Positions 4,754 through 63,504 of a stretch of DNA of 64,000 nt are shown here, one piece after another; within the stretch, counting starts at the first letter, position 1, and each line of letters opens with the position of its first letter. The notes below the pieces were generated by a model that did not search any database, was not told the origin of the DNA, and saw only the letters and a list, made by a program, of their open reading frames with translations. The DNA comes from Microbacterium sp. SORGH_AS_0969 (GTDB taxonomy: Bacteria > Actinomycetota > Actinomycetes > Actinomycetales > Microbacteriaceae), in contig NZ_JAUTAG010000001.1 of assembly GCF_030818255.1 (NCBI RefSeq), positions 2,170,001-2,234,000 of the forward strand, read 5' to 3'. The translations under genes and the position numbers were made by a program.

Positions 4754-5158
4754 ATGGCACGGCTGCTTCTGGTACTGGCGCTCGTGGCGACCGCCTTCTG
4801 GGTCTACACGATCGTCGACTGCGCGGTGCAGCCCGCGACGCGACACCGCGGGGTCAGCAAGGGCGCCTGGATGGTCATCGTCATCCTGCTGCCCGTGCTC
4901 GGCGGCATCCTGTGGTTCCTCGTCGGCCGCGGTCGCGCGGGTGCCCCCGCGCTGCGGCGCGCGCCGGACGACGACCCCGAGTTCTTGGGACGCCTCTCGC
5001 CCGCCGCCCGCGCCGACCAGGACGAGCGCATCCGCCGCCTCGAAGAAGAGCTGGCACAGCTCGACTCCGAAGCCGACGACCCGCGCGATGCACGCCCGGA
5101 GACCCGGGACGACCCCGGCGACGACGATGCCCGCGGACAGCGCGGCGCCGTCAGCTGA
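4754..5158 (+). CDS. PLDc_N-domain small membrane protein
   Basis: A 134-residue protein with two transmembrane helices at about 4-24 and 38-60 and a W-V-Y-T-I-V-D-C linker. This is the pattern of the phospholipase D N-terminal transmembrane domain found alone in many actinobacteria. No HKD catalytic motif follows, so it should not have phospholipase activity. The C-terminal half is acidic and probably helical (RRLEEELAQLDSEADD). It starts at ATG 4754 and ends 3 nt before menD, so the two are likely translated from one mRNA. Confidence 0.8.
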   Translation: MARLLLVLALVATAFWVYTIVDCAVQPATRHRGVSKGAWMVIVILLPVLGGILWFLVGRGRAGAPALRRAPDDDPEFLGRLSPAARADQDERIRRLEEELAQLDSEADDPRDARPETRDDPGDDDARGQRGAVS

Positions 5159-10769: not shown

Positions 10770-11831
10770 GTGACCCCGAGACTGCCCGCGGCCAGCACCC
10801 GCCTGTCGGGCAAGCTGGGCCTGAGTGACCGCATCTTCGCCGGCCTGCGTTCGCGCACCCTGCTGTCGACCGTCGAGGCGGGTCTCGCGCGCGTCGAGGG
10901 CACGCTCGAAGAAGAGGTGCGAAGCGCCGATCGCCTCGCCGACGTCACCGCCCGGTACCTGTACGAGGCCGGTGGCAAGCGCGTCCGGCCGATGCTGGCG
11001 ATCCTCACGGCGCAACTCGGGCGCGGAACGACGCCCGAGGTCATCGAGGTCGCCACTGCTCTCGAGCTGACGCACCTCGGCTCGCTGTACCACGACGACG
11101 TCATGGACGGTGCCGACAAGCGCCGCGGGGTGCCGAGCGCCCAGACGGTGTGGGGCAACAACATCGCGATCCTCACCGGTGACCTGCTGTTCTCTCGCGC
11201 GAGCCAGCTCATGGCCCGGCGCGGCGAGCGGGCCATCCAGCTCCAGGCTGACACCTTCGAGCGGCTCGTGCTCGGGCAGATGCATGAGACCGTGGGCCCT
11301 GCGGAGGGCGACGAGCCCGTCGACTTCTACCTGAAGGTGCTTGCCGACAAGACCGGTTCGCTCATCGCCGCGGCCGCGCAGTGCGGCGTCATCTACTCCG
11401 GCGCCCCCGAAGAGTTCGAAGAGCCCATGGTGGTCTTCGGCGAGAAGGCGGGCGTCGCTTTCCAGCTTCTGGACGATGTGATCGACCTCTCGCCGGACGC
11501 GTCCGAAACGGGCAAGGTGCCCGGCACCGACCTGCGCGCGGGCGTGCCGACGATGCCGTACCTGCTGCTCGGGCACCGCTCCGACGCCGCGTCCGCCGAT
11601 CTGCGCACGCGCATCGACGAGGGGCAGGAGCGCATCGCGGCCGGCGCCGACCCGGCGATCCTCGACGCTCCGCTCGCCGAGCTGCGCGATCACGACACGA
11701 CGCACGAGACGCTCCGCCTCGCGCACCAATGGTCGCAAGAGGCGATCGACGCCCTCGTACCGCTGCCCGACGGTGCCGTGCGCGAGGCGCTGACGCGCTT
11801 CGCCCGCGCGGTCGCCGATCGTTCGGCCTGA
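10770..11831 (+). CDS. Polyprenyl diphosphate synthase
   Basis: Trans-isoprenyl diphosphate synthase of 353 residues that probably makes the long-chain side-chain donor used by MenA. Features are GGKRVRPML, the first aspartate-rich motif YHDDVMDGAD, and the second LLDDVIDLSPDASETGK followed by GTDLRAGVPT. Small residues ahead of the first Asp motif (THLGSLY) fit a long-chain (C35-C45) product, but chain length cannot be fixed by eye. The start is GTG 10770. It lies between menG and fprA. Confidence 0.9.
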   Translation: MTPRLPAASTRLSGKLGLSDRIFAGLRSRTLLSTVEAGLARVEGTLEEEVRSADRLADVTARYLYEAGGKRVRPMLAILTAQLGRGTTPEVIEVATALELTHLGSLYHDDVMDGADKRRGVPSAQTVWGNNIAILTGDLLFSRASQLMARRGERAIQLQADTFERLVLGQMHETVGPAEGDEPVDFYLKVLADKTGSLIAAAAQCGVIYSGAPEEFEEPMVVFGEKAGVAFQLLDDVIDLSPDASETGKVPGTDLRAGVPTMPYLLLGHRSDAASADLRTRIDEGQERIAAGADPAILDAPLAELRDHDTTHETLRLAHQWSQEAIDALVPLPDGAVREALTRFARAVADRSA

Positions 11832-52754: not shown

Positions 52755-52828
52755 GGCGGGGTAGCTCAGTTGGTGAGAGCGCACGACTCATAATCGTGAG
52801 GTCGCGGGTTCAAGCCCCGCTCCCGCTA
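52755..52828 (+). tRNA. tRNA-Met (CAT)
   Basis: A 74-base tRNA with acceptor GGCGGGG pairing TCCCGCT, anticodon CAT in loop CTCATAA, D-arm TAGCTCAGTTGGTGAGAGC. It looks like the elongator type. The accessory island begins directly after it. Confidence 0.95.
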
Positions 52829-52850
52829 CTTCTCAGAGGGGTTAGCTGCC

Positions 52851-53003
52851 TTACTCGAACAATCCTCGAGGCCAGGGCGGACCCTCCGCGTGGATCGTGC
52901 GGTGGTTGCTTAGATCGATGTTCTCCGGGAAACGCTTTCCTTGCCCGTCGCGGAACTATTGGTTCGTACCAAGCTCGGCCCGGAAACGATCGTTTTCGGC
53001 GAC
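52851..53003. repeat. Repeat R1: right-end fragment of the island unit
   Basis: From TTACTCGAACAAT to the palindrome P1 (GGAAACGATCGTTTTCGG, about 52982-53000) this matches the right end of unit R4 at about 63111-63412, with a large internal deletion. Shared stretches include CGGAACTATT and GTACCAAGCTCGGCCCGGAA. It starts about 22 bases after tRNA-Met. Confidence 0.85.
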
Positions 53004-53006
53004 CAC

Positions 53007-53495
53007 CTACTCCGATGCGACTCTGCATGGCGGGAGGTCCACGGTGCCGGCGGATCCGCACGTCAGTCGCATGCCCCATGTTCGATCGCGCCGACAGTTC
53101 ACCATCTTGAACTCCGACCAGTCGTAGCTTCCGAACTTGCCGGGCCATGCCCAGAAGATGACTGCGGAGTCTTCGAATTTCACCTCAATGCCGGTCTCGG
53201 AGAACCAGTCCCACGTTGCAGCACCCGAGTAGACCTCACCTGTGTCGTCCCAACAGATTCCGGAATCGGTCCTCACCCATTGCCCTTCTGGCACATTCGT
53301 CAGTTCGGCATTACCCCCGGGCGAGATCATCAACGACATTCTCGGTTCCGTATCGCTGGCATCGGTATCGTTCCGGCCCCCGTCCCAGGCCGCCGGAGGC
53401 TGCGGTCTGGATTCGGGTTCGCGCCCACCGCAAGCCGCTAGTCCAATGGTCAGGAGAAGGGTGGCAGAGGCTATCGCGGCTAGGCGTCGGAGCAT
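53007..53495 (-). CDS. Hypothetical lipoprotein
   Basis: A 162-residue exported protein with lipobox TIGLAAC (about residues 16-22), a Pro-rich linker and a Trp-rich globular part with three Cys. I recognise no family. Its stop lies only a few bases from the palindrome P1 of repeat R1. It is island cargo with a composition different from core genes. Confidence 0.62.
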   Translation of the reverse strand: MLRRLAAIASATLLLTIGLAACGGREPESRPQPPAAWDGGRNDTDASDTEPRMSLMISPGGNAELTNVPEGQWVRTDSGICWDDTGEVYSGAATWDWFSETGIEVKFEDSAVIFWAWPGKFGSYDWSEFKMVNCRRDRTWGMRLTCGSAGTVDLPPCRVASE

Positions 53496-53662
53496 TGCAT
53501 CATCTCTGTTGGTAGGCCAGTGGGGACACTCTGAGGCGTCGATGTTGCGGGCTCCGGAGATGAGCCCATCCGCGTGGGGACTGCCGCACGAGCCGACCTC
53601 GTTGACCCCGTCCTCTGCTGGTTTCGACGCAAGCTAGCGGCGCGGGCCGAGCAACCCAAGGT

Positions 53663-54181
53663 TCACTCCGCCGAGAACAATTGATCTCGCGCTACCCCCG
53701 TTGAATCAGCTTTGCGCCCGATGACCATCACAGCGGTTGCAAGGACCATGCCGAGGAGTCCGACGAGTGCTCCGGGGATAGTCAGCCCTGTCAAAGTCAT
53801 AAGGTCGCTATTCGATCCGCTTGTCGCGCCAACGAGATAGGCGGCAACCGTGACGCTCGCCCAGACCAGCGTCACCGTGGACGTCAGCAGAAGAGAGGGA
53901 GCCGCGGTAAGGGTCCCGAGACCGCTTATGCACCTCGCAGCGCCTACGCAAAGGCCCACGGCCAAGAGCGCGAGAGCGGAGGCAATTGCGATCGCATAGC
54001 CTTCCTCTCCTTCGTCTGTGTAGCTAGCCGTGGACGCGAAGAAGAGAACCGCAGTCAGGACGCAGAACACGGCGACTGATACGCAGACCAAGGCTGCGAA
54101 CGCGGCGCGCCAATGGATAGCCCGCCGCTCTCGAGCATGCAGTGCGCCGGGCGATTCAGACCTGATTCTGGTGACCCCCAC
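53663..54181 (-). CDS. Four-helix membrane protein of unknown function
   Basis: A 172-residue protein with four hydrophobic helices (about 25-50, 60-85, 92-115, 125-155). I see no recognisable motif. It is located between repeats R1 and R2. Confidence 0.6.
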   Translation of the reverse strand: MGVTRIRSESPGALHARERRAIHWRAAFAALVCVSVAVFCVLTAVLFFASTASYTDEGEEGYAIAIASALALLAVGLCVGAARCISGLGTLTAAPSLLLTSTVTLVWASVTVAAYLVGATSGSNSDLMTLTGLTIPGALVGLLGMVLATAVMVIGRKADSTGVARDQLFSAE

Positions 54182-54316
54182 GCCGCGAGCCTAGTCCCGT
54201 TTGCCTGTCAACTCCGTACGTGGTGTCGCGAAGTCGACTGATCTCCGACGGCGCTAGCCGTTTGCGCATTTGATGAGCGTGGACGTCAACGAGCTTTGCG
54301 TAAACAGCGTTCGGCG

Positions 54317-54549
54317 TGTTGCGAAAACTAACCGGTTTCGGCTCGGGTGAAGCCGTGGTGAAAAGCTCCCCTGAACATGCGTGTCGAGTCGACTTGATAC
54401 CCCGTGCCGAAACGAGAAATGGGTCGAACGACGTGAAGCCATATCTGGGCCACAGGTTGATGCTCGTAACGCCGGGGGCGAGTCACCTCACTTGGGGCTA
54501 CCGCCGCGCGGGCGCCGGCTGGTATGAAACCGATCGTTTCTGGGTCTAG
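54317..54549. repeat. Repeat R2: short internally deleted unit
   Basis: A 233-bp derivative. It opens with palindrome P2 (about 54317-54347), continues with the same 150 bp as the left part of R4 (61170-61335), then keeps only the last few codons of the tandem-HTH gene (CTACCGCCGCGCGG, about 54499-54512). It ends with another palindrome copy, P3 (54519-54549). This is the layout of a non-autonomous derivative of the unit. Confidence 0.8.
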
Positions 54550-54589
54550 TGAGGCGCAGCGAGTCTAAGGGTGTGAACTGCCGTGGCGA

Positions 54590-55509
54590 ATGTCGCGTTT
54601 GTCGCATTGTTTCGCGTCCGATGAGGAGGACTTCCTCGGAGGCATCGACGGCCTCCTAGAGGTGACGCGGTTGCGGCCCTACTCATGCGATCGTGGACCA
54701 GTGAGCTTCGCAGACCTGGATCTTCCTGTTGCAGTGACGACACTTGGCGAGGGTGCAGGTCCGCCGGTGATCGTCCTGCCCGGAGGGCCCTGCCGAGGAC
54801 CGGAGTACTTAGGTGATCTAGCAGGCTTAGGTGAGACGCGTCAGTTGATCCTGATGCATCCCCGTGGGACCCCTAAAAGCGGCGGCCTCTCCCGCGGTTG
54901 GTGGACAGACGCGAACGACGTCATCCTGGTTGCGGATGCACTCGGCCTTCAATCGTGGCCCACTCCGCCGGAACCAGACTCGCTCTCGCCACGGCGACCC
55001 AGTTCACGTCGCGGGTTCGTTCCATGGCTCTCATCACCCCGCCCGCATCCTGGCTCACCGACATACCGTCCGACGCCGAATCGATTGCCGAGAAATACTG
55101 CGCTCTGGAAGCTCGGGAGGCTCTTGCGCTCGTGTTGACGGACGAACCCTCCACAGAGTTCGAGTTTCATGAGGCCTTCCAAAGGCAGGCGCCTGCGAGC
55201 TACGCACACTGGACCGCGGTCGAGCAGAGCCACGCGAAATCGGGAGCCGTCAGTTTAGTAGCGGCGGCGGCATGGTTCGCCGACATTCCTCCGGACGCAG
55301 GCGATCGCATCCGAGCAACCCCACAACCACCAACCCTCGCGGTTGCGGGCGATCGGGACCTCCTGACCGGCGTCAAGCCCGTCGCTGGGTACGCCAGCCT
55401 TCTTGGCGCTGACTACGCCCTCATCGAAGAGTGCGGCCACTACCCGTGGGTCGAGCAGCCGCAAGCGTTCCGCGGCCGACTGGACGCCTGGCTGAACCGA
55501 CACGTCTGA
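54590..55509 (+). pseudogene. Alpha/beta hydrolase, frameshifted
   Basis: The first frame (54590-54961) carries VIVLPGGPCRGPEYL and LILMHPRGTPKSGG, the oxyanion and strand region of a proline-iminopeptidase-like hydrolase. The frame changes near 54955, and IVAHSAGTRLAL (nucleophile Ser), AGDRDLLTG (Asp) and EECGHYPWVEQP (His) are encoded in the +2 frame to 55509. The two frames together make one hydrolase of about 300 residues. One base appears lost between ALG and IVAHSAG. The gene is most likely inactive. The true start is unclear (GTG 54702 is possible). Confidence 0.85.
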
Positions 55510-55679
55510 GACTCAAGCCGCCGCATGGTCGCGTGACACACCGCGTACATCGGCGTACGTGGGGACTGGCATCGCGGTAGGCGCGGAGTGTTCTCAAACA
55601 CCGAGCCGTTGGCATCGGCGCCCCTCACGCACGCGTACAACGACCTGTGATAGCGGGCGGACGAAGACTCGAACGCCGC

Positions 55680-56072
55680 CTAGGTTCGACTCCCACCCCG
55701 GGGCCGGCGCTGGATACCTGCCCGAACTAGGGCTTGACGGACACCGTTGTAGCTGACGTCGAAGTGGGCCGCGGTAGCCGCGAGCGACTTGCCGCTCTTA
55801 TAGAGCGCAGTGGCTTCGCGCACCTGCTCTTCCGACAGGGGCTGACGCCGAAGCTGAACGCCTTCGTCGCGGAGCAGCTTCAGCAGGCCACCCTTCGAAA
55901 GGGTGTAGTCGACGCAGAGAGATGGGGTTGTCGCGCCGGACTGGTACTTCTTTACGATCTCATCGACGAGAGAGGGATCAAGCCGACGGCGCAGGAGTCG
56001 AGGCGACCTCTTGGAGGGTGCATTGAATACGGGCGTATTCGGCGCTAGGCCAGCCAGTTTCTTCAGTTCCAC
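55680..56072 (-). CDS. Tandem helix-turn-helix protein (copy 1)
   Basis: A 130-residue DNA-binding-like protein with two similar HTH units: LRRRLDPSLVDEIVKKYQSG and TTPSLCVDYTLSKGGLLKLL, then LSEEQVREATALYKSGKSLA with AHFDVSYNGVRQALVRAG. It ends RPRGGSRT. The frame starts with GTG at 56072, but conserved coding-like sequence (KSALLPPPL) continues upstream in both copies, so this may be the C-terminal remnant of a longer recombinase-like gene. A paralogue is at 61335. Confidence 0.75.
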   Translation of the reverse strand: MELKKLAGLAPNTPVFNAPSKRSPRLLRRRLDPSLVDEIVKKYQSGATTPSLCVDYTLSKGGLLKLLRDEGVQLRRQPLSEEQVREATALYKSGKSLAATAAHFDVSYNGVRQALVRAGIQRRPRGGSRT

Positions 56073-56372
56073 CAGGGGTGGCGGCAGAAGTGCCGATTTA
56101 TTCGAGTTGCGGTGTACTGGGCCTACTTCAGGGATAGGACTCGAGTCTTACTCGAACAATTGGCCAAGGCCAAGGCGCGGCACCTCCGCGGCGATGGCTC
56201 AGACACGTTCTCTTCCTTGCCCTATCGCGGGTCGCGAGACCATGCTGACCTGCTTTTCGTTGAGTCCAAGCAGCAGAGAGTCGCGGTCACCGGTACTCCG
56301 GGTCCGACTGAGCAGCGATCTGCCTGACCGGCATGGAGTGGTTGCTCAGATCGATCACCGTGTTCTGGAATT
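56040..56372. repeat. Repeat R3: uninterrupted copy of the unit's middle part
   Basis: 56040-56092 (GCTAGGCCAGCCAGTTTCTT...GGTGGCGGCAG) matches 61701-61745, and 56093-56372 matches 63058-63345. There is no IS here, so this copy shows the pre-insertion state of R4. It joins the HTH gene to the end of the antitoxin gene. Confidence 0.9.
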
Positions 56373-56541
56373 CGCCGTCCGTTGCCTGGGTCAGCTCGGG
56401 AGATAGGTGCTCGATCGGGACGAGAGCAGCTACGCCCTTGCCGTGCCGGGTCAGGACGATGGACTCGCCCCCGAATCGGACGCGGTTGACGAGTTCCGAG
56501 AGCTGACCGCGGGCCTCGGAAACTGGAACTTCGTCCGTCAT
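56287..56541 (-). CDS. Phd/YefM-type antitoxin (orphan)
   Basis: An 84-residue prevent-host-death antitoxin: VPVSEARGQLSELVNRVRFG, VLTRHGKGVAALVPIEHL. No toxin gene follows downstream. Its last 26 codons (NHSMPVRQIAAQSDPEYR) are part of repeat R3 and recur in R4 and partly in R1. It is divergent from the MFS gene, with an operator-like palindrome between. Confidence 0.8.
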   Translation of the reverse strand: MTDEVPVSEARGQLSELVNRVRFGGESIVLTRHGKGVAALVPIEHLSPELTQATDGEFQNTVIDLSNHSMPVRQIAAQSDPEYR

Positions 56542-56550
56542 GACACCATG

Positions 56551-56581
56551 CTACATTATGTGAAATTTGTACAAAATGTAG
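56551..56581. promoter_or_regulatory. Operator-like palindrome upstream of antitoxin
   Basis: CTACATTATGT at 56551-56561 and ACAAAATGTAG at 56571-56581 form an inverted repeat (10 of 11 matching) with a 9-base centre. It lies between the antitoxin and MFS starts and would allow antitoxin autoregulation and control of the MFS gene. Confidence 0.7.
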
Positions 56582-56594
56582 CGAGGCGAGGTAC

Positions 56595-57809
56595 GTGGTC
56601 TATCGGGCGGAGGACGGTCGTAGCTTCGGGTGGCTGTGGGGCGCCACGGTAGGGGCCGCGCTGGGTGACGGTTTATCGATGACGGCCTTCCCGTTGTTGG
56701 TCGCCAGTCAGACGCGGGATCCGTTCATCGTCTCTCTTCTGCAGGTCGCGACAGGCCTACCTTGGCTGCTGTTCGGTCTCTTGGCGGGGGCCCTGGTCGA
56801 TCGATGGGACCGCCGAGCGGTCATGTGGCGCACTGACCTGGCACGCCTTTGCATCGCCCTCTCGCTCGGGGTGCTGGTCGCGCTCGGTCATGCGCCGGTG
56901 GCCGTCGTTCTGCTCGCGGCTTTCCTTCTTGCGTGTGGGTCGACGTTGATCCGGAGCGCGGCGCCCGCGTTGCTCCCCACGCTCGTTGCGCGTGAGAAAC
57001 TGGCGCACGCGAACGGCCGCCTGCAGGCGGGTTCTACCGTTTCGGGCAGCTTCCTCGGTCCCGCCGCGGGAAGCGTGCTGTACTCCCTCTCCGCGGCCGT
57101 GCCCTTCCTCACGCAGACGTTCGCCCTGGTCGTGTCGACAGTGTGCGTGTGGCGACTCCCCGCGACCCTCGTGCCGTCAGCATCGCGAACAGGGCGCAGC
57201 TCGATCTGGGCTGAGGCCACTGACGGGGTGCGGTGGCTGGCTGCGCACCGAGTTCTGCGCTCCATTGCAGTCGGCACGATTCTGCTCGCCGCCTCAACCG
57301 GCGTGCTCCTCGCCGTTCTCGTCATTCATGTGCTGGAGTTCCTACGTCTGCCGCCCGTCGGGTACGGCGTACTCATCAGCGTGTACGCCGGCGGGAGCCT
57401 CGCGGGATCACTCCTCACCGCACGACTCCGACACACACTCGGAACCAATCGGTGTCTGCTGACTTCTGCGCTCCTCGGGACTGTGTCCATCGCAGCCCTC
57501 GCGATGGCTCCCAACGCAGCTCTCGCAGGAGGCGCCCTCTTCACCCTCGGCGTCGCAACCATGCTGTGGAACATCCTGGCGGTCACGGTCCGACAGGAAC
57601 TCACCCCAAACCACCTTCTCGGGCGGGTGACGAGCGCGTTCACCGTCGCAAGCGTAGGCACCGCACCCATCGCCGCACCGCTAGGGGGCGTCGTCGCTTC
57701 TCTCACCAACACGTCGGTGGCAATCAGCGGCGCAGCGCTGCTCTGCGCATTTGCATGCATTGCCGTCGGTCGACTCCCGTACCTGGATGACACAAAATGG
57801 GCCGAATAG
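56595..57809 (+). CDS. MFS transporter (DHA3-type)
   Basis: A 404-residue transporter with about 12 helices. ALVDRWDRRAVMWRTDLAR is MFS motif A, and a repeat of it is present after the central loop as LLTARLRHTLGTNR. It resembles the macrolide-efflux-like DHA3 group. GTG start at 56595, close to the operator. Cargo between R3 and the SnoaL pseudogene. Confidence 0.85.
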   Translation: MVYRAEDGRSFGWLWGATVGAALGDGLSMTAFPLLVASQTRDPFIVSLLQVATGLPWLLFGLLAGALVDRWDRRAVMWRTDLARLCIALSLGVLVALGHAPVAVVLLAAFLLACGSTLIRSAAPALLPTLVAREKLAHANGRLQAGSTVSGSFLGPAAGSVLYSLSAAVPFLTQTFALVVSTVCVWRLPATLVPSASRTGRSSIWAEATDGVRWLAAHRVLRSIAVGTILLAASTGVLLAVLVIHVLEFLRLPPVGYGVLISVYAGGSLAGSLLTARLRHTLGTNRCLLTSALLGTVSIAALAMAPNAALAGGALFTLGVATMLWNILAVTVRQELTPNHLLGRVTSAFTVASVGTAPIAAPLGGVVASLTNTSVAISGAALLCAFACIAVGRLPYLDDTKWAE

Positions 57810-57907
57810 ATGACGCCATGGTGCGAGACCGATTGACTGCGGGAGCATGTGAGTGTGCATCACACACTGCGCCTCTCAGCCCGCGTCCGTAACTCGTCGA
57901 GGGGAAA

Positions 57908-58399
57908 ATGTTGAGCGACGTTGAGGAGCGTCTCGAGCTCCTCGAAGCCGAACTGGCCATACGCCGGCTTGTCGCCGTGTACTGTCATGGCGCTGATAAA
58001 CGTGATCTTGATCGATTTCTGAGCGTGTGGGCATCGAACGCATCTTGGGTGCTCAGTGACGAGGCGACCTTCAGAGGTCACGATGCCATCGCGAGTGTCG
58101 TTCGACGCCAATGGGAAGCCTTCGCCGGTTACGTTCACTAGACCACCAATCACGTCGTCGAAGTCGACGGGGACCGAGCAAAGGGCGAGTGCGATGTCGC
58201 CGTGGCGGTCCAGCTCCACAACGGTCAGTGGCTACACTCCGGGGGCACCTACATCGACGAGTACGTTCGTAGCGACGGGCGCTGGTTGATCGCTCGGCGA
58301 GATGCCCGCCGCGGCTTCGACATCGACCCGCCGCCGGAACCTCACGATATTCCGGTTCGTTTTGACGACCTTCTCTCGTCAACTGACGAAGAGAACTGA
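57908..58399 (+). pseudogene. SnoaL/NTF2-like gene with an internal amber codon
   Basis: The frame from ATG 57908 reads an NTF2/SnoaL-like start (LEAELAIRRLVAVYCHGADK and RDLDRFLSVWASNASW) up to a TAG at 58139-58141. It continues in the same frame as TTNHVVEVDGDRAKGECDVA, then LDEY-like YIDEYVRSDGRWLIARRDAR. The expected residue at the stop is Gln (CAG to TAG), so it is a nonsense mutation. A degenerate palindrome-like TGGTGCGAGACCGAT lies at about 57820. Confidence 0.85.
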
Positions 58400-58443
58400 G
58401 CCGTCCCTGTCGGCTAAAGAGCGAAGCCGTGCTCATGACGTTT

Positions 58444-58474
58444 TGGTGCCAAACCGATCGGTTTCGCGCCGAGG
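58444..58474. repeat. Island palindrome P4
   Basis: TGGTGCC-AAACCGATCGGTTT-CGCGCC, the best-preserved copy: the central 14 bases are a perfect palindrome. It lies between the SnoaL pseudogene and the 2H gene. Confidence 0.85.
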
Positions 58475-58557
58475 TGTGCCGCTTCTGTCACATCAGCGCA
58501 CCGTGCCTGGTCGGCGGCTAGGGTCGAATATCTCAGCGAGCGAAAGGAGCCCATCGG

Positions 58558-59157
58558 ATGCGACGCCCCTTCATGACCGACCCCGAGCTGCTGCGCTCGT
58601 TGCGGGGCCAGCAGTACCTGGTGCGCCGCCCCGTCGCGGACGTTGCGAAGTTCTACGACGACGAACAGCGATCGCTTCGAGGTCTACTACAGACATCTCT
58701 CCCTTGTCCCAACACCGGCCATGTGACCTTGCGCGGCTTCTTCGAGCCCGAACGAGTGCAGCCGCTTGGAGATGCTCTAGCGGGGTGGGCGCAACTCCAA
58801 GCTCCCATCGATCTCCGGGTGGCAGCCGTCGACGGATTCCCGACACCATTTCAGATCGTGATCGCGCGAGCCGAACGTTCGCCATCCCTCGTGAGCGCCT
58901 ACACGGCCCTCACCGAGATGCTCGACACCAGCGACTTTAGACGCATCGGCGAACTCCCGCTTTACGAGTGGGTGTTTCACCTGTCACTCCTATATGCCGG
59001 TGCCCTGCCCGAACTCGAGTGGCTGGCGCTCCATGGTCAGAGTCGGCGCGACCTTGCATCGGTGCCGGCCGAAGTGATCACCTCCGCTGAGTATGTCTGG
59101 TACGACGACGACGGCGAACACATCGAGGTCCTGCCCCTCGGCACGGATCGCTACTGA
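58558..59157 (+). CDS. 2H phosphoesterase / 2'-5' RNA ligase-like protein
   Basis: A 199-residue protein with two HxT/S motifs: HVTLRGFFEPERVQPLG at about residue 62-78 and FHLSLLYAG at about 140, as expected of the 2H phosphoesterase fold (LigT-like). Family members act on 2'-5' linkages or cyclic phosphates. The start is ATG 58558 or ATG 58573. No RNA-processing neighbour is present. Confidence 0.72.
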   Translation: MRRPFMTDPELLRSLRGQQYLVRRPVADVAKFYDDEQRSLRGLLQTSLPCPNTGHVTLRGFFEPERVQPLGDALAGWAQLQAPIDLRVAAVDGFPTPFQIVIARAERSPSLVSAYTALTEMLDTSDFRRIGELPLYEWVFHLSLLYAGALPELEWLALHGQSRRDLASVPAEVITSAEYVWYDDDGEHIEVLPLGTDRY

Positions 59158-59240
59158 CCCAACGGCGCTACCTCAAACATTGAACAAAGGCTCGGGTGCG
59201 AGCGTGGGATGCCGTGGCTATCGCTCTACCATTGAGCGCC

Positions 59241-59531
59241 ATGCGATACCGGCTGATGAACGATTACTTAGCGGACTGGCCGTTCTGGGGGGAGGGGGAG
59301 GATGCCGGGCTGTGTGCTGCAGGTAATCCCGCGCTTCCCGCTGATCTGGAAGCCGACATTCGGGCATGGGCTGCATGCTTCAATGACCAGTTCAGTTGGG
59401 AGTATGGATGGCCGGATGAGGAGACCGCCGCTGCTCACAAAGTCGAGGGCGAACGGCTGCACCGTTGCGTACAGCGGGCCCTACCTGAGCATGACATCGT
59501 CCTCAACTACTGGGAGAAATCCGTCCGATAG
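59241..59531 (+). CDS. Small conserved-looking hypothetical protein
   Basis: A 96-residue protein starting MRYRLMNDYLADWPFW, with RAWAACFNDQFSWEYGWPDEE and HDIVLNYWEKS. The Trp-rich composition is unlike noise, so it is likely real. I recognise no family. Confidence 0.6.
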   Translation: MRYRLMNDYLADWPFWGEGEDAGLCAAGNPALPADLEADIRAWAACFNDQFSWEYGWPDEETAAAHKVEGERLHRCVQRALPEHDIVLNYWEKSVR

Positions 59532-59569
59532 GCACTCGCGCTTCGACGCATCACCGATCGACTTCGCTG

Positions 59570-60172
59570 CTATCGATTGATGGCTGCCCATGCCTCAAAC
59601 TCCCCCTGCACCTCGTCGAAAAAAGCCGTCTTCGCCCGCGTGTAATCGTCGTAGTCGGCTTTGCCGACCTGTTGTGCACTGAGATCTCGTTTCACTGCCT
59701 CGTAGCGACTGCGAGCGTCAGGGTTAGCCCGTAACCAGTCGCGGAACCAGACCGTGTAAAAGCCCCAGGGGGAGTCTGCTCGTCGGACATGCAGGATGGC
59801 TTGGGCGTCCTCGTTCCAGAAAAGTTGCTTCTCCCATACGCGGGGATCGACCTCGACCGAGCCTCGTGGAAGGTCGCGGTCGACGCCCGGGGAATCTGGT
59901 CGGGATCCACGAGCCCTCATGTAGCCCAACGGTTGCAACCTCGCGCGGAGGTCCCCCTCGGCGGGCAGGGGAGAAATGCGTAGCTGCAGATCGATTAGAG
60001 GCTTCGCTGCAAGGCCAGGCACGGAGGTGGAGCCGATGTGATCGAGTTTCGCGGACTCGCTGCCATCCATTCCTTTCAACGCGTCGCCCACGTCAGACAG
60101 TAAACGCGATGCGCGCTGAGGCCACTCGGCTTGATGCTCGACCAGCGCAGCCGGATTTTTCTCCTCGCTCAC
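59570..60172 (-). CDS. GrpB family protein
   Basis: A 200-residue protein of the GrpB/UPF0157 nucleotidyltransferase-like group: KLDHIGSTSVPGLAAKPLID is the family's nucleotide-binding motif, with HVRRADSPWGFYTVWFRDWL later. Its role is not known. The stop is 39 bases from the end of the small gene at 59241 (convergent). Confidence 0.85.
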   Translation of the reverse strand: MSEEKNPAALVEHQAEWPQRASRLLSDVGDALKGMDGSESAKLDHIGSTSVPGLAAKPLIDLQLRISPLPAEGDLRARLQPLGYMRARGSRPDSPGVDRDLPRGSVEVDPRVWEKQLFWNEDAQAILHVRRADSPWGFYTVWFRDWLRANPDARSRYEAVKRDLSAQQVGKADYDDYTRAKTAFFDEVQGEFEAWAAINR

Positions 60173-60173
60173 G

Positions 60174-60587
60174 TCAGCTTCGCAGGGTCGCGTAGTCAGC
60201 TACGGACGTGAACTCTGCCGCGGCCGCTTGAAGTGTGGGGTCGGCGGCGATGAAGGCGTCGGCCTGCAAGGTCGCGACGGCGAGGTACTCCGCGAGCGCG
60301 GTGTCCTCCCAATCGAGTTGTCCTGCGATCTTCCACGCGGTGGCTCGGGAGACACGGTCGCCGAGCAGACGGATCTGCAGGGTGGCGAGCCCGTCGAGTT
60401 GAGCGCGCGCAACCTTCTCCTCAATCGCACCTTCGCGCATCTCGCGGTAGAGCAGGGAGAGCACGTGGCTGCGCAGCACGGCGGGACCCACGAGGCGATG
60501 CCGAGACCCGATTCCGGGATCGTCGCGAATGATTCGGAGTGCGGTGGGCGCGTCGATCGCGAAGCGCTTTCCTGCGGGCTTCATCAT
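60174..60587 (-). CDS. VapC-like PIN-domain toxin
   Basis: A 137-residue protein with a PIN-like order: KRFAIDAPTALRII with the first Asp, LRSHVLSLLYREMREGAIEE, RLLGDRVSRATAWKIA, DTALAEYLAVATLQADAFIA with Glu and Asp. It matches a subgroup of VapC toxins (RNA-cleaving). No intact antitoxin precedes it; a 3'-like frame ending RIERDWLKR overlaps its ATG. The start at 60587 is chosen because the open frame above it runs into palindrome P5. Confidence 0.68.
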   Translation of the reverse strand: MMKPAGKRFAIDAPTALRIIRDDPGIGSRHRLVGPAVLRSHVLSLLYREMREGAIEEKVARAQLDGLATLQIRLLGDRVSRATAWKIAGQLDWEDTALAEYLAVATLQADAFIAADPTLQAAAAEFTSVADYATLRS

Positions 60588-60741
60588 CTCTTCAGCCAAT
60601 CCCGTTCGATCCTGGTACTCAAGTCTGAGGCGGAACACCACGGAAAAGGTGTCGCCCCCGAGGGCACAAATAGGAGTAACCAACCACTTCCACGGGACGC
60701 CTGGAAAATGGCCACTGACCCCGCTCCGCAACACCAACCTG

Positions 60742-60771
60742 TGGTGCAAAACCCATCGGTTCGCGCCACCA
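60742..60771. repeat. Island palindrome P5
   Basis: TGGTGCAAAACCCATCGGTT and CGCGCCACCA: a slightly degenerate copy whose ends (TGGTGC/GCGCCACCA) are also inverted. It lies upstream of the VapC-like gene. Confidence 0.8.
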
Positions 60772-60848
60772 ACCCGTCGAGGGTGGAGTGAGTGACGGTG
60801 TACGTATTACCGCCCTGCAGAAGACGCCTCGATCCTCTGACTCCCGAG

Positions 60849-61073
60849 TCAACCCTCGCCCGGACCCGATGCGAGTCGGGTGAGCCGCGTGCGCCCCGAG
60901 ACGCTGGCGTAGTCGACCAGATACACATGTTGTCCCGGCCCAAGCCGGTCGATGAGATCGATTAGCGGGATACCTGACCGGAAATCGTGTTCACTGATCG
61001 ACCGTGGGTAAGCCCCAGCGACGAGGAAAACGGGCATGCGTTCGATTCCGTCAACCGGGTGAGTCCTGGTCAT
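60849..61073 (-). CDS. Small hypothetical protein (doubtful)
   Basis: A 74-residue frame with plausible strand/helix order (PVFLVAGAYPRSI, LIDLIDRLGPGQHVYLVDYA). No family recognised and no strong ribosome site. It lies between palindromes P5 and P6. Confidence 0.35.
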   Translation of the reverse strand: MTRTHPVDGIERMPVFLVAGAYPRSISEHDFRSGIPLIDLIDRLGPGQHVYLVDYASVSGRTRLTRLASGPGEG

Positions 61074-61334
61074 GTGACGAGTCTGCTATGTGCGGCGGCA
61101 CCGACGCCACATCGGTCGGGACAGGGCTAGCGCCAGTCCGACCGCGGGGTGGGAGTGCAACGAGCGATGTGGTGCGAAGCCGATCGGTTTTGAGCCGGGC
61201 AACGGCGCCGCGAGAAGTTTCCCTGAACGCGCTCACGGAGTGGGCTCGAAACCCCATGTCGAAACGGGAAACGGGTCGAAAAGTGTGTGGGCATTCTTGT
61301 GGCCAGGGGTCGATGCTCTCAGTGCTGGGGGGGC

Positions 61335-61691
61335 TCACTTATAGCTACCGCCGCGCGGACGCAGCTGAACTCCCTCTCTGATGAGGCGCTGCCGCACGTT
61401 GTTGTAGCTGGTGTCGAGGCGAGACGCGATGGTGGCGATTGGATGGCCGTGCTCGTACATCGCTCGTGCGACCTCGACCTGGTCGCTAGTGAGCGCTTGA
61501 TGTCGCAGTGATGCTCCCTCGTCTCGAAGCAAGCGAAGGATGCCGGTCTTCGACAGACCGTAGGTCTCACAAAGACTTGGGGTCGTTGCGCCCGACTCGT
61601 ACTCAGTGACGATTCGCTTGACCTGCGCAGGTTCGAGACGTCGCCGAAGTGATCGGCTCACCTGTTTTAGAGGGTTGGTTGAGAGAGGCAA
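61335..61691 (-). CDS. Tandem helix-turn-helix protein (copy 2)
   Basis: A 118-residue paralogue of the protein at 55680: VSRSLRRRLEPAQVKRIVTEYE, TTPSLCETYGLSKTGILRLL, then LTSDQVEVARAMYEHGHPIA and SRLDTSYNNVRQRLIREGVQ, ending RPRGGSYK. The start is TTG 61691. The GTG used by copy 1 is GGA here, but upstream bases remain coding-like (GELQKLAGLA) across the IS insertion point, supporting decay of a longer gene. Confidence 0.75.
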   Translation of the reverse strand: MPLSTNPLKQVSRSLRRRLEPAQVKRIVTEYESGATTPSLCETYGLSKTGILRLLRDEGASLRHQALTSDQVEVARAMYEHGHPIATIASRLDTSYNNVRQRLIREGVQLRPRGGSYK

Positions 61692-61767
61692 ATCTGTCGC
61701 TAGGCCAGCCAGTTTCTGCAGTTCTCCCAGGGGTGGCGGCAGCAGTGAATCGGCCTGGCTTTCGTTC

Positions 61768-62694
61768 CTATTGGGAGCCTTGTCCGGCAGGTGCTGGATT
61801 GGCTGATTCGAGGTCAGCGTAATACGCGTCCTCGACTTCGATCGGGGTGCGCATGTCGAGCTCGCCGTGGAGGCGGGAGTTGTTCCACCGCCACACGTAT
61901 TCGAGTGTTGCCAGTTCCACCTGCTCGACGGTTCGCCAGGGGCCTCGCTGGCGGATCAGTTCGGTCTTGTAGAGGTTGTTCACGGCCTCGGCCATCGCGT
62001 TGTCAAACGAGTCGCCGACGGTTCCTGTCGAGGGGATGGCGCCGAGTTCGACGATCCGGTCGGTGTAGACCATTGCGGTGTAGTTCGATCCGTGGTCGGC
62101 GTGATGGATCAGCCCGTCGAGCCTGCCGCCGGCGTCCCACGCGGCCATGTCGAGCGCCTGCATCGGCAGGATCTCGGCCTTGAGCGTGGCGGCGACGTTC
62201 CACCCGACGATGCGTCTCGAGTAGACGTCGGTGACGAACGCGACGTACGCGAAGCCGGACCAGGTCGCGACGTAGGTCACGTCGCAGACCCAGAGCCGTC
62301 TCGGAGCCGGCGCGGTGAAGCGCCTGTTTACGAGGTCGGCGGGCAGCACCGTTGTCTTGTCGGAGCGGGTCGTGAACACCCGCTTCGACTTCCTCACGCC
62401 CCGGACACCCGCGAGACGCATAAGCCTCTCGGTCTGGTCGCGGCCGATGTCCCACCCCTGCCGGCGTATCAGCGCATGCATCTTCCGTCGCCCGTAGACG
62501 CCGTAGTTCTCCGCATGCAGCCTGGCGACCTCCGGTGCGAGCAGTTCGTCCCGCAACCGCCGCGTTGACGGCGTTCGGGCGAGGGCGGCGCGGTAGCCGC
62601 GGGAGGTAAGGAAACCCTGGACTGCCGGTCGGAGGACCCGGCAGATGAGCTCGACCCCGAAACGATCCCGGTGTTCACTGATGAACCGGATCAT
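61768..62694 (-). CDS. IS3-family transposase orfB (DDE integrase)
   Basis: A 308-residue rve-type DDE transposase. HTH-like YGVYGRRKMHALIRRQGWDIG precedes the catalytic core; first Asp in WVCDVTYV, second Asp in HHADHGSNY, Glu in NAMAEAVNN, with the usual EYVWRWNNSRLHGELDMRTP tail. It is read by a -1 shift from orfA: in the TTTTTC tract near 62722-62727 the -1 frame runs on into orfB. Confidence 0.93.
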   Translation of the reverse strand: MIRFISEHRDRFGVELICRVLRPAVQGFLTSRGYRAALARTPSTRRLRDELLAPEVARLHAENYGVYGRRKMHALIRRQGWDIGRDQTERLMRLAGVRGVRKSKRVFTTRSDKTTVLPADLVNRRFTAPAPRRLWVCDVTYVATWSGFAYVAFVTDVYSRRIVGWNVAATLKAEILPMQALDMAAWDAGGRLDGLIHHADHGSNYTAMVYTDRIVELGAIPSTGTVGDSFDNAMAEAVNNLYKTELIRQRGPWRTVEQVELATLEYVWRWNNSRLHGELDMRTPIEVEDAYYADLESANPAPAGQGSQ

Positions 62695-62699
62695 CTCGG

Positions 62700-63005
62700 T
62701 CAGGGGCGGTCGAGCTCCTTCGCGAAAAACACACTTGCAGCCTTGAGAATCTCATTCGCCTTACGAAGCTCGGCGTTCTCCTTCTGCAGCCGCTTGATCT
62801 CCGCCGCCGCGTCCGTTGTCAGCCCGGGTTTGGCGCCCGCGTCGACTTCCGCTTGACGCTGCCACAGTCGCAGCGTCTCCGGACTCATCCCCAGCAGGCC
62901 CGCGACATGCCGCACGGCGCTCATCATCGTCGGGTGCGACGGCCGCGTCTCCGCGAGCATCCTGAGCGCCCGCTCACGCATCTCCGGCGAGTACTTCCTG
63001 TTCAT
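62700..63005 (-). CDS. IS3-family transposase orfA (HTH)
   Basis: A 101-residue protein with HTH RERALRMLAETRPSHPTMM and a leucine-zipper-like C-terminus (IKRLQKENAELRKANEILK). The stop is 5 bases before the orfB start; a TTTTTC tract upstream of the stop allows a -1 frameshift to form the OrfAB fusion transposase. Confidence 0.92.
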   Translation of the reverse strand: MNRKYSPEMRERALRMLAETRPSHPTMMSAVRHVAGLLGMSPETLRLWQRQAEVDAGAKPGLTTDAAAEIKRLQKENAELRKANEILKAASVFFAKELDRP

Positions 63006-63504
63006 CGTCTTCCATCCTTGCTTGAAGAACGGAACGAAAGTCAGGCCGATTCAGCAGCGCGGATTTATCCGAGTAGCGGTGTACCGGCTCTACTTCGGGG
63101 ATGGGACTCGAGTCTTACTCGAACAATTCTTCAAGGCCAAGATGCGGAACCGCCGCATGGATGGCTCATACGCGTTCCTTCTTTGCCCTGTCGTAGGTGG
63201 CGAGACCCATGCTGACCTGCTGTTCGTTGAGTTCAGTCAGCAGGGAGCGGTGGTCACCGGTAATCCGGGTCCGACTGAGCGGCAATCTGCCCGAGCGGCA
63301 TGGAGTGGTTGCTCAGATCGATCACCGCGCTCTCCGGAAAACGCCTTCCTCGCCCGTCTCGGAACTATTCGTTCGTACCAAGCTCGGCCCGGAAACGATC
63401 GGTTTTGCGCCACGTGCGGTCGACGCTTTTCGTAGTGCGCACCGCGTTGATGCGCGAGGCGCTGGATTTGACTGTTGGGTAAGACCGTTAGGGTTGCGCC
63501 TCGT

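Follow-up and report, generated by a model that had tools for sequence, protein, structure and literature searches.

The window examined here is a 64,000-nucleotide stretch of the genome of Microbacterium sp. SORGH_AS_0969 (the host; contig NZ_JAUTAG010000001.1, positions 2,170,001 to 2,234,000), and toward its end lies an island of small, unrelated genes punctuated by a short palindrome (Table 1). The original prediction, made from the sequence alone, had read this palindrome as either the end of a transposable unit or a recombination site separating exchangeable cassettes, and had placed the island start directly after a tRNA-Met gene, which ARAGORN confirms. Palindromic sites are indeed present at all eight of the places claimed. 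The 14-mer core has five matches in the window at up to two mismatches, versus 0.09 expected, a number reached by none of 100 shuffles, and the remaining three places differ from the core by more than two mismatches. Across the full 3.94-Mb host genome, the same search finds seven places, every one of them in two islands (the window's and another at ~1.13 Mb), and the reversed control finds none, so the even spread through the genome that would have spoken against cassettes is not observed.

The copies are not near-identical, as had been supposed. Those at 58445, 60743, and 61171 form one class (class 1), with the perfectly palindromic consensus GGTGCGAAACCG-AT-CGGTTTCGCACC, and the one at 52977 is an exact member of a sister class (class 2). 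The sites at 54521 and 63386 look, by half-site, like class 1/class 2 hybrids, which would fit crossing between the classes via a common CGATCG core, and those at 54319 and 57820 score close to background. In a matrix scan, six of the eight sites scored 22.8 to 33.7, 54319 scored 8.6, and 57820 scored below 7.5, where the top scores of three shuffles were 9.6 to 12.5 and the matrix had been built mostly from the scored sites themselves. The one piece of evidence for 57820 is a better-preserved counterpart in a relative (G007), and that for 54319 is a left-end repeat common to 54319 and 61171. The supposed inversion of the first and last copies (52977 and 63386) falls away because a palindrome reads alike in both directions; the difference at these two lies in the class of their half-sites. 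The recurring unit of ~0.93 kb survives as a tandem helix-turn-helix (HTH) segment running from site 61171 to site 63386, but there it contains a 1.3-kb insertion sequence (~61746-63052).

Table 1. Features of the palindrome-punctuated island, in window coordinates (ORF, open reading frame; MFS, major facilitator superfamily)
Feature	Position	Strand	Basis or remark
tRNA-Met next to island start	52755-52829	+	ARAGORN; same locus in G007, G024, and NS220
Site, class 2 type on both sides	52977-53002	.	Exact class 2 match at 52979-53000
Between-site genes: 162-aa ORF (lipoprotein-like start, by eye) and 172-aa membrane-like ORF	53007-54181	-	ORFs; no Pfam family above cut-off
Decayed site, left end of partial tandem-HTH unit	54319-54344	.	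Left end repeated at 61171; score near background
Site, left half class 1-like, right half class 2-like	54521-54546	.	Matrix and half-sites
Alpha/beta hydrolase gene in two reading frames	54590-55509	+	ORFs 54590-55138 and 54898-55509; Abhydrolase in the second
Tandem-HTH gene (passenger)	55680-56072	-	PF19575
Antitoxin-like ORF, taken as passenger	56287-56541		End lies within repeated right part of tandem-HTH unit
MFS transporter cassette	56595-57809	+	Common to G007 and NS220
Decayed site	57820-57845	.	Counterpart at 11058 of G007 L051; flanks diverge past site
SnoaL-like gene with in-frame stop	57908-58399	+	Open in NS220
Class 1 site	58445-58470	.	Two mismatches versus consensus; perfect in NS220
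Between-site genes: 2'-5' RNA ligase-like, small ORF, GrpB, and 191-aa ORF	58558-60749	.	
Class 1 site	60743-60767	.	One base shorter than consensus
Class 1 site, left end of tandem-HTH unit	61171-61196	.	
Tandem-HTH gene (passenger)	61335-61691	-	PF19575, PF02796
Insertion sequence	61746-63052	-	rve and HTH_Tnp_1 ORFs; absent from this place in NS220
Site, left half class 2-like, right half class 1	63386-63411	.	

Comparison with relatives at the same locus indicates which parts of the island have changed. Window positions 55735-61745, including the sites at 58445, 60743, and 61171, are shared with M. testaceum NS220 at 92.6% identity, and positions 52866-55734 are replaced there by different genes. 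The island of G007 is only ~3.4 kb long; what it has in common with the window is the MFS cassette, as far as the counterpart of site 57820, beyond which the flanks differ, and therefore exchange is seen at a window site. Gene order between the sites is thus not syntenic in all relatives, which would have told against cassettes, and content varies, though the stretch in common with NS220 implies that much of the array predates the split of these lineages. In place of window 52866-55734, NS220 (L110, 1571-4426) carries DUF6791-ThiF, DUF6527, multiubiquitin, and ImmA-like genes.

Class 1 sites are patchily distributed. The pattern GGYGCNAAACCGATCGGTTTNGCRCC, with up to three mismatches, occurs in 14 of 198 Microbacterium genomes, the host among them, and its reversed control is absent from all 198; the copies are often grouped within ~10 kb. 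In a collection of one genome per species (84,980 species), the exact 22-mer was found in 23 stretches, of which by title 20 are Microbacterium, 2 come from one metagenome-assembled genome of an Actinomycetota bacterium, and 1 is Cryobacterium. Viral contigs held no exact match to the site, and the plasmid collection gave one good match, the M. proteolyticum plasmid NZ_CP121273.1, the others being weak or partial. All 58 class 1 sites tested are intergenic, in loci where called genes occupy 73% of the sequence. The genes between sites are diverse: in G058, sites alternate with a zinc alcohol dehydrogenase gene and two RibD-like genes, of which the one tested has PF01872, and in G055, sites separate a 7-kb metal-resistance-like stretch, a group of three genes, and a group of two genes (names by eye). 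As recorded, NZ_CP121273.1 consists of two ~68-kb units joined head to tail, either an assembly effect or a true multimer.

The sister class came to light at two loci with more distant resolvases (L143 and L142, in genomes G083 and G187), where a second palindrome with the same CGATCG core, GCCGNAAACG-AT-CGTTTNCGGC, is present. With up to one mismatch, this pattern occurs in 53 of the 198 Microbacterium genomes, in up to 13 copies, and its control has no match in any of the 198. Exact class 2 sites were found in 4 of 297 genomes of an order-wide sample, namely 3 of 13 Microbacterium, including the host, and 1 of 284 others. Genes from a simple in-house caller place 70 of 71 class 2 sites between genes.

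Pairs of sites from different places frequently share one flank and not the other. For 79 class 1 sites, among them six low-scoring ones from the window and L005 that were entered manually, 60 pairs sharing a flank were found, of which 43 shared that flank only, 10 shared both, and 7 were cut by contig ends, so that 43 of the 53 evaluable pairs, which are not independent of one another, are one-sided. Without the pairs sharing the accessory region described below, 29 of 38 are one-sided, in 10 flank families. A second procedure found one-sidedness in 23 of 27 comparisons at sites versus 42 of 147 at other intergenic points. The class 2 set, consisting of 71 sites in L142, L143, and 20 loci of 14 genomes that we selected among the listed places, gave 80 one-sided pairs of 82, or 28 of 29, in 16 families, when the accessory family is left aside. 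One clear case is a metal-resistance block that starts at a site and whose flanks are 98.8-100% identical in G058, G044, G024, and plasmid NZ_CP121273.1, whereas the left flanks belong to three different families (G058 and G044 being alike). Recombinant arrangements are also apparent in individual sites: site 7568 of G027 is half of G053 L068_15 joined to half of G053 L056_974, and plasmid site 34690 consists of the left half of G053 L056_974 and the right half of L056_3911, without the intervening 2.9 kb. Plasmid site 41655 and G027 site 17462 have one half in common and differ in the other. On this sequence evidence, flanks are shuffled at the palindrome.

The letters within the palindrome locate the exchange more closely. 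Among 19 class 2 pairs, hand-picked like those of class 1 at a flank identity of at least 95%, variable position 7 agrees on the shared side in 14 and on the other side in 3, and over all letters the shared side agrees at 239 of 247 versus 202 of 247. For 14 class 1 pairs, the corresponding counts are 170 of 182 versus 158 of 182, where agreement on the shared side is lowered by the plasmid site with an extra base. Half-site letters thus tend to travel with their flank, which puts the exchange inside the palindrome.

At 12 class 1 sites, alignment revealed a conserved region on one side that carries additional copies of the site arms: a head-to-tail pair, corresponding to subsite II, and, farther out, an inverted pair, corresponding to subsite III. 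When 13 sites were measured, with a single mismatch allowed in each arm, one or more arms of subsite II were found in 13 of 13 and the inverted subsite III in 8 of 13, and the whole subsite set lies 10-11 bp farther from site I in 5 of 13, giving two spacings that differ by about one helical turn. This layout agrees with that of a resolution site (res). According to PMC12217951, a res spans ~120 bp and has three subsites, each made of 12-bp arms; cleavage takes place at the central 2 bp of site I, and phasing is important. A head-to-tail site II is known for Sin, according to PMC2428073. Here, too, a res of this kind lies near a resolvase gene in several loci, plasmid NZ_CP121273.1 among them, site I is by sequence an inverted repeat around a central dinucleotide, and the phasing typical of res systems is present. 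The central AT is found in 92 of 94 class 1 and 130 of 130 class 2 half-sites, in sites that were selected by likeness to the consensus. Fifteen class 2 sites have the same I-II-III layout, with an arm different from that of class 1 and with 14 different opposite flanks.

The associated genes encode small recombinases with a resolvase catalytic domain and a C-terminal HTH: among five resolvases tested, of which two are almost one protein, PF00239 was found in 5 of 5, as were HTH matches, all below curated cut-offs. For class 1, the distance from resolvase gene to site is 223 bp in L062, 0.5 kb in L047, and 1.5 kb in L058, and on plasmid NZ_CP121273.1 the resolvase WP_076677903.1 (41897-42487) lies ~220 bp from site 41655. 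For class 2, the resolvase start codon follows subsite III in L142 and L143, a resolvase match from residue 57 onward lies ~207 bp away in L171 and L181, and in L175, outside the accessory family, a site lies 166 bp ahead of another resolvase. Resolvases at least 85% identical to the two queries occur in seven genomes (group A: G000, G044, G053, G058, and G109; group B: G024 and G167), six of which belong to the 14 genomes with class 1 sites, a co-occurrence that is partly circular because the queries were picked beside sites. The close resolvases of G109 and G053 have accessory arms nearby, and such arms are also present in host L005; none were seen in L132 (G044, a 3.8-kb contig) or in L147 (G167), where transposase genes lie between resolvase and site. 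The class 1 accessory motif was not found in 14 loci with resolvases at 57-74% identity, in which the sole class 1 matrix match is a weak, class 2-like one in L143 (14.1); the class 2 matrix was applied to L142 and L143 among these. Apparent insertions of Tn402-like elements within res sites were seen by eye in L005 (~5137), L131 (~7890), L122 (~19080, NZ_CP121273.1), and L064, the last of which carries a TniA-like gene; they appear as expected of res-hunting transposons.

Taken from the sequences, then, the sites have a res-like architecture, lie beside resolvase genes in several loci, and shuffle their flanks. We consider it very probable that the palindromes are site I crossover subsites (12-AT-12) of a small serine resolvase system and that the segments between them are exchanged as cassettes. 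Of the two alternatives in the original prediction, the recombination site is the one supported, by the one-sided flanks, half-site exchange, presence or absence of segments, and patchy, clustered occurrence. In the mechanism we propose, cassettes of one or a few genes would be swapped when two sites are each cut internally, most likely at the central AT, and rejoined. The complete res found in many arrays would serve as the platform and the bare 26-bp palindromes as cassette ends; the resolvase would do the cutting, probably by pairing a complete res with a bare site I that is carried by a circle or plasmid, with strand exchange at the centre. Cassettes would move as circles or via plasmid cointegrates, and the product would have a complete res on one edge and a bare site on the other. 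In the stretches examined that have at least two sites, the accessory region lies, by eye, on the outer side in L046 (with L045), L048, L049, L053, L060, L063, L096, and L097 and at plasmid site 41655, but not at plasmid site 19007, and the six sites of G055 (L043) show no accessory motif by eye. Since the site is symmetric, cassettes could enter in either orientation, and related classes could form hybrids.

Several observations weigh against this interpretation. For Tn3, recombination of two isolated subsites I was not detected, according to PMC12217951. The central AT as the cutting point is proposed by analogy, as the CGATCG core is almost invariant. Besides the dependence among flank pairs, the class 1 excess of agreement in the shared half is small, shared halves differ at position 7 in 5 of the 19 class 2 pairs, and it is plasmid site 34690 that carries the extra base. 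Eight of the 14 class 1 genomes have no resolvase at least 85% identical to the two queries, the sole copy in the host matches in two frames, and in G109 a close resolvase and an interrupted res are present, yet no class 1 site. Of the 15 class 2 res sites, most have no resolvase alongside, with none within 1 kb outside L142, L143, L171, and L181, and three window sites are unmoved in NS220.

Other explanations account for parts of these data. If the palindromes were merely short homologies whose flanks are shuffled by general homologous recombination, the near identity of the 26-bp repeats among cassettes and the imperfect linkage of half-site and flank would follow; however, 26 bp is very short for RecA-type exchange, the one-sided flanks begin at the site in both classes, and the association with res and resolvase would be unexplained, making this very unlikely. 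The transposable unit of the original prediction, in which the palindrome would be the inverted terminal repeat of a transposon or an element resembling a miniature inverted-repeat transposable element moved by a DDE transposase, draws on the tandem-HTH unit, which has a site at both ends (61171 and 63386), partial copies elsewhere, and an insertion sequence inside. We regard it as highly improbable: the segments between sites are unrelated, single sites stand alone, accessory arms and resolvases accompany the site, which belongs to a resolvase res, and no target-site duplication is visible by eye in the one unit inspected (61171/63411).

A regulatory role, with the palindromes as operators, terminators, or repeats like repetitive extragenic palindromic sequences between island genes, would suit the intergenic position of the sites in both classes, but such repeats would not be expected to be patchy in their presence (14 and 53 of 198 genomes), to cluster, to have shuffled flanks, or to include hybrid half-sites, and we give it very little credence. 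Barely credible, finally, is the action of a Xer-type tyrosine recombinase, as in dif modules, for which the site would be of 11-6-11 form and CGATCG would be the spacer; the sequence can also be read in this way, and the module architecture resembles that of dif modules, as described in PMC13141974, whereas both arms are alike and the accessory arms lie beside serine resolvase genes.

The resolvase/res reading also defines how the array relates to known systems. Resolvases of the Tn3 and Sin types are alike in having PF00239 and a C-terminal HTH and a res near the gene with an inverted site I and accessory subsites, to which Sin adds the head-to-tail subsite; they differ in that they resolve multimers or cointegrates and need accessory sites (PMC12217951 and PMC2428073). 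The Microbacterium sites, by comparison, include bare copies of site I between unrelated genes, with flanks shuffled among genomes. Gene cassettes in variable arrays, with a platform and simple sites between them, are likewise a property of integrons. Integrons consist of IntI, a platform site attI, and simple attC sites between small cassettes, and attC sites carry RYYYAAC and GTTRRRY boxes. They employ a tyrosine integrase and folded attC, unlike the serine resolvase, symmetric palindromes, and possible entry in either orientation here; the two boxes are absent from both consensus sites, which are symmetric palindromes, and a motif scan of called genes (from the simple in-house caller) found no IntI beside an array, no profile search having been run. 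Sites of the dif type have unlike XerC and XerD arms around a spacer, whereas the arms are alike in both site classes. The dif modules of Acinetobacter are accessory genes bounded by short pdif sites recombined by XerC/D, and they resemble the present arrays in that plasmid-borne genes between such sites are rearranged and exchanged (PMC13141974). They differ in using tyrosine recombinases, as opposed to res accessory subsites and serine resolvases. The sites of the Hin and Gin invertases share the 26-bp, 12-2-12 form and similar AAACC and GGTTT letters near the centre, but those enzymes invert one segment, and here there are resolvase-type accessory subsites and many exchangeable segments. 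On the sequence features compared, the array is organized like an integron or dif module, yet it lacks the defining features tested for both and has those of resolvase/res.

It seems reasonably likely that Microbacterium harbors a third kind of mobile cassette beside integrons and dif modules, with a res platform, bare site I cassette ends, and at least two classes plus hybrids. Such a system would be carried by plasmids as well as chromosomal islands, and its cargo would include metal resistance and many single genes. Searches of the open literature, with most subscription journals outside their scope, yielded no description of such a serine-resolvase cassette system. Integrons and dif modules use tyrosine recombinases, and a serine resolvase in the same role would, if confirmed, represent a plasmid-resolution enzyme turned into a gene-capture system. 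It would also pose the testable question of how a bare site I escapes the control that forbids such recombination in Tn3, and it would account for many of the patchy insertions, each of a single gene or a few, in an environmental genus that is common. The two site models provide a means of finding cassettes, a metal-resistance block among them.

The array in the window is an old, partly decayed chromosomal one beside tRNA-Met that is probably now inactive. In the host, the sole close resolvase gene is found in the second island (1122352-1122934), where it aligns as two fragments in different reading frames, and in host L005 the accessory arms (~5043-5107) are followed by an apparent Tn402-like insertion (by eye) and not by site I; both suggest inactivity. 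The tandem-HTH proteins, the only possible recombinase named in the original prediction, do not look suited to that role: no catalytic domain was found, and a site lies on the 3' side in only 2 of the 10 gene copies examined. Nor do they behave as a factor of the system, as relatives of at least 50% identity occur in 4 of 198 genomes, two of them with class 1 sites, and they look like passengers. A 144-aa HTH protein beside another recombinase of NZ_CP121273.1 is unrelated to them.

The island continues for ~26 kb beyond the window (L007 and L020; host genome 2233901-2260086), where P450-like and other enzyme genes (by eye) and two further tandem-HTH genes are found. In addition, ~40 nucleotides of the 3' flank of tRNA-Met (52826-52866) are repeated upstream of tandem-HTH genes (56123-56163 and 63090-63130), and this may be the attachment-type repeat of a separate element.

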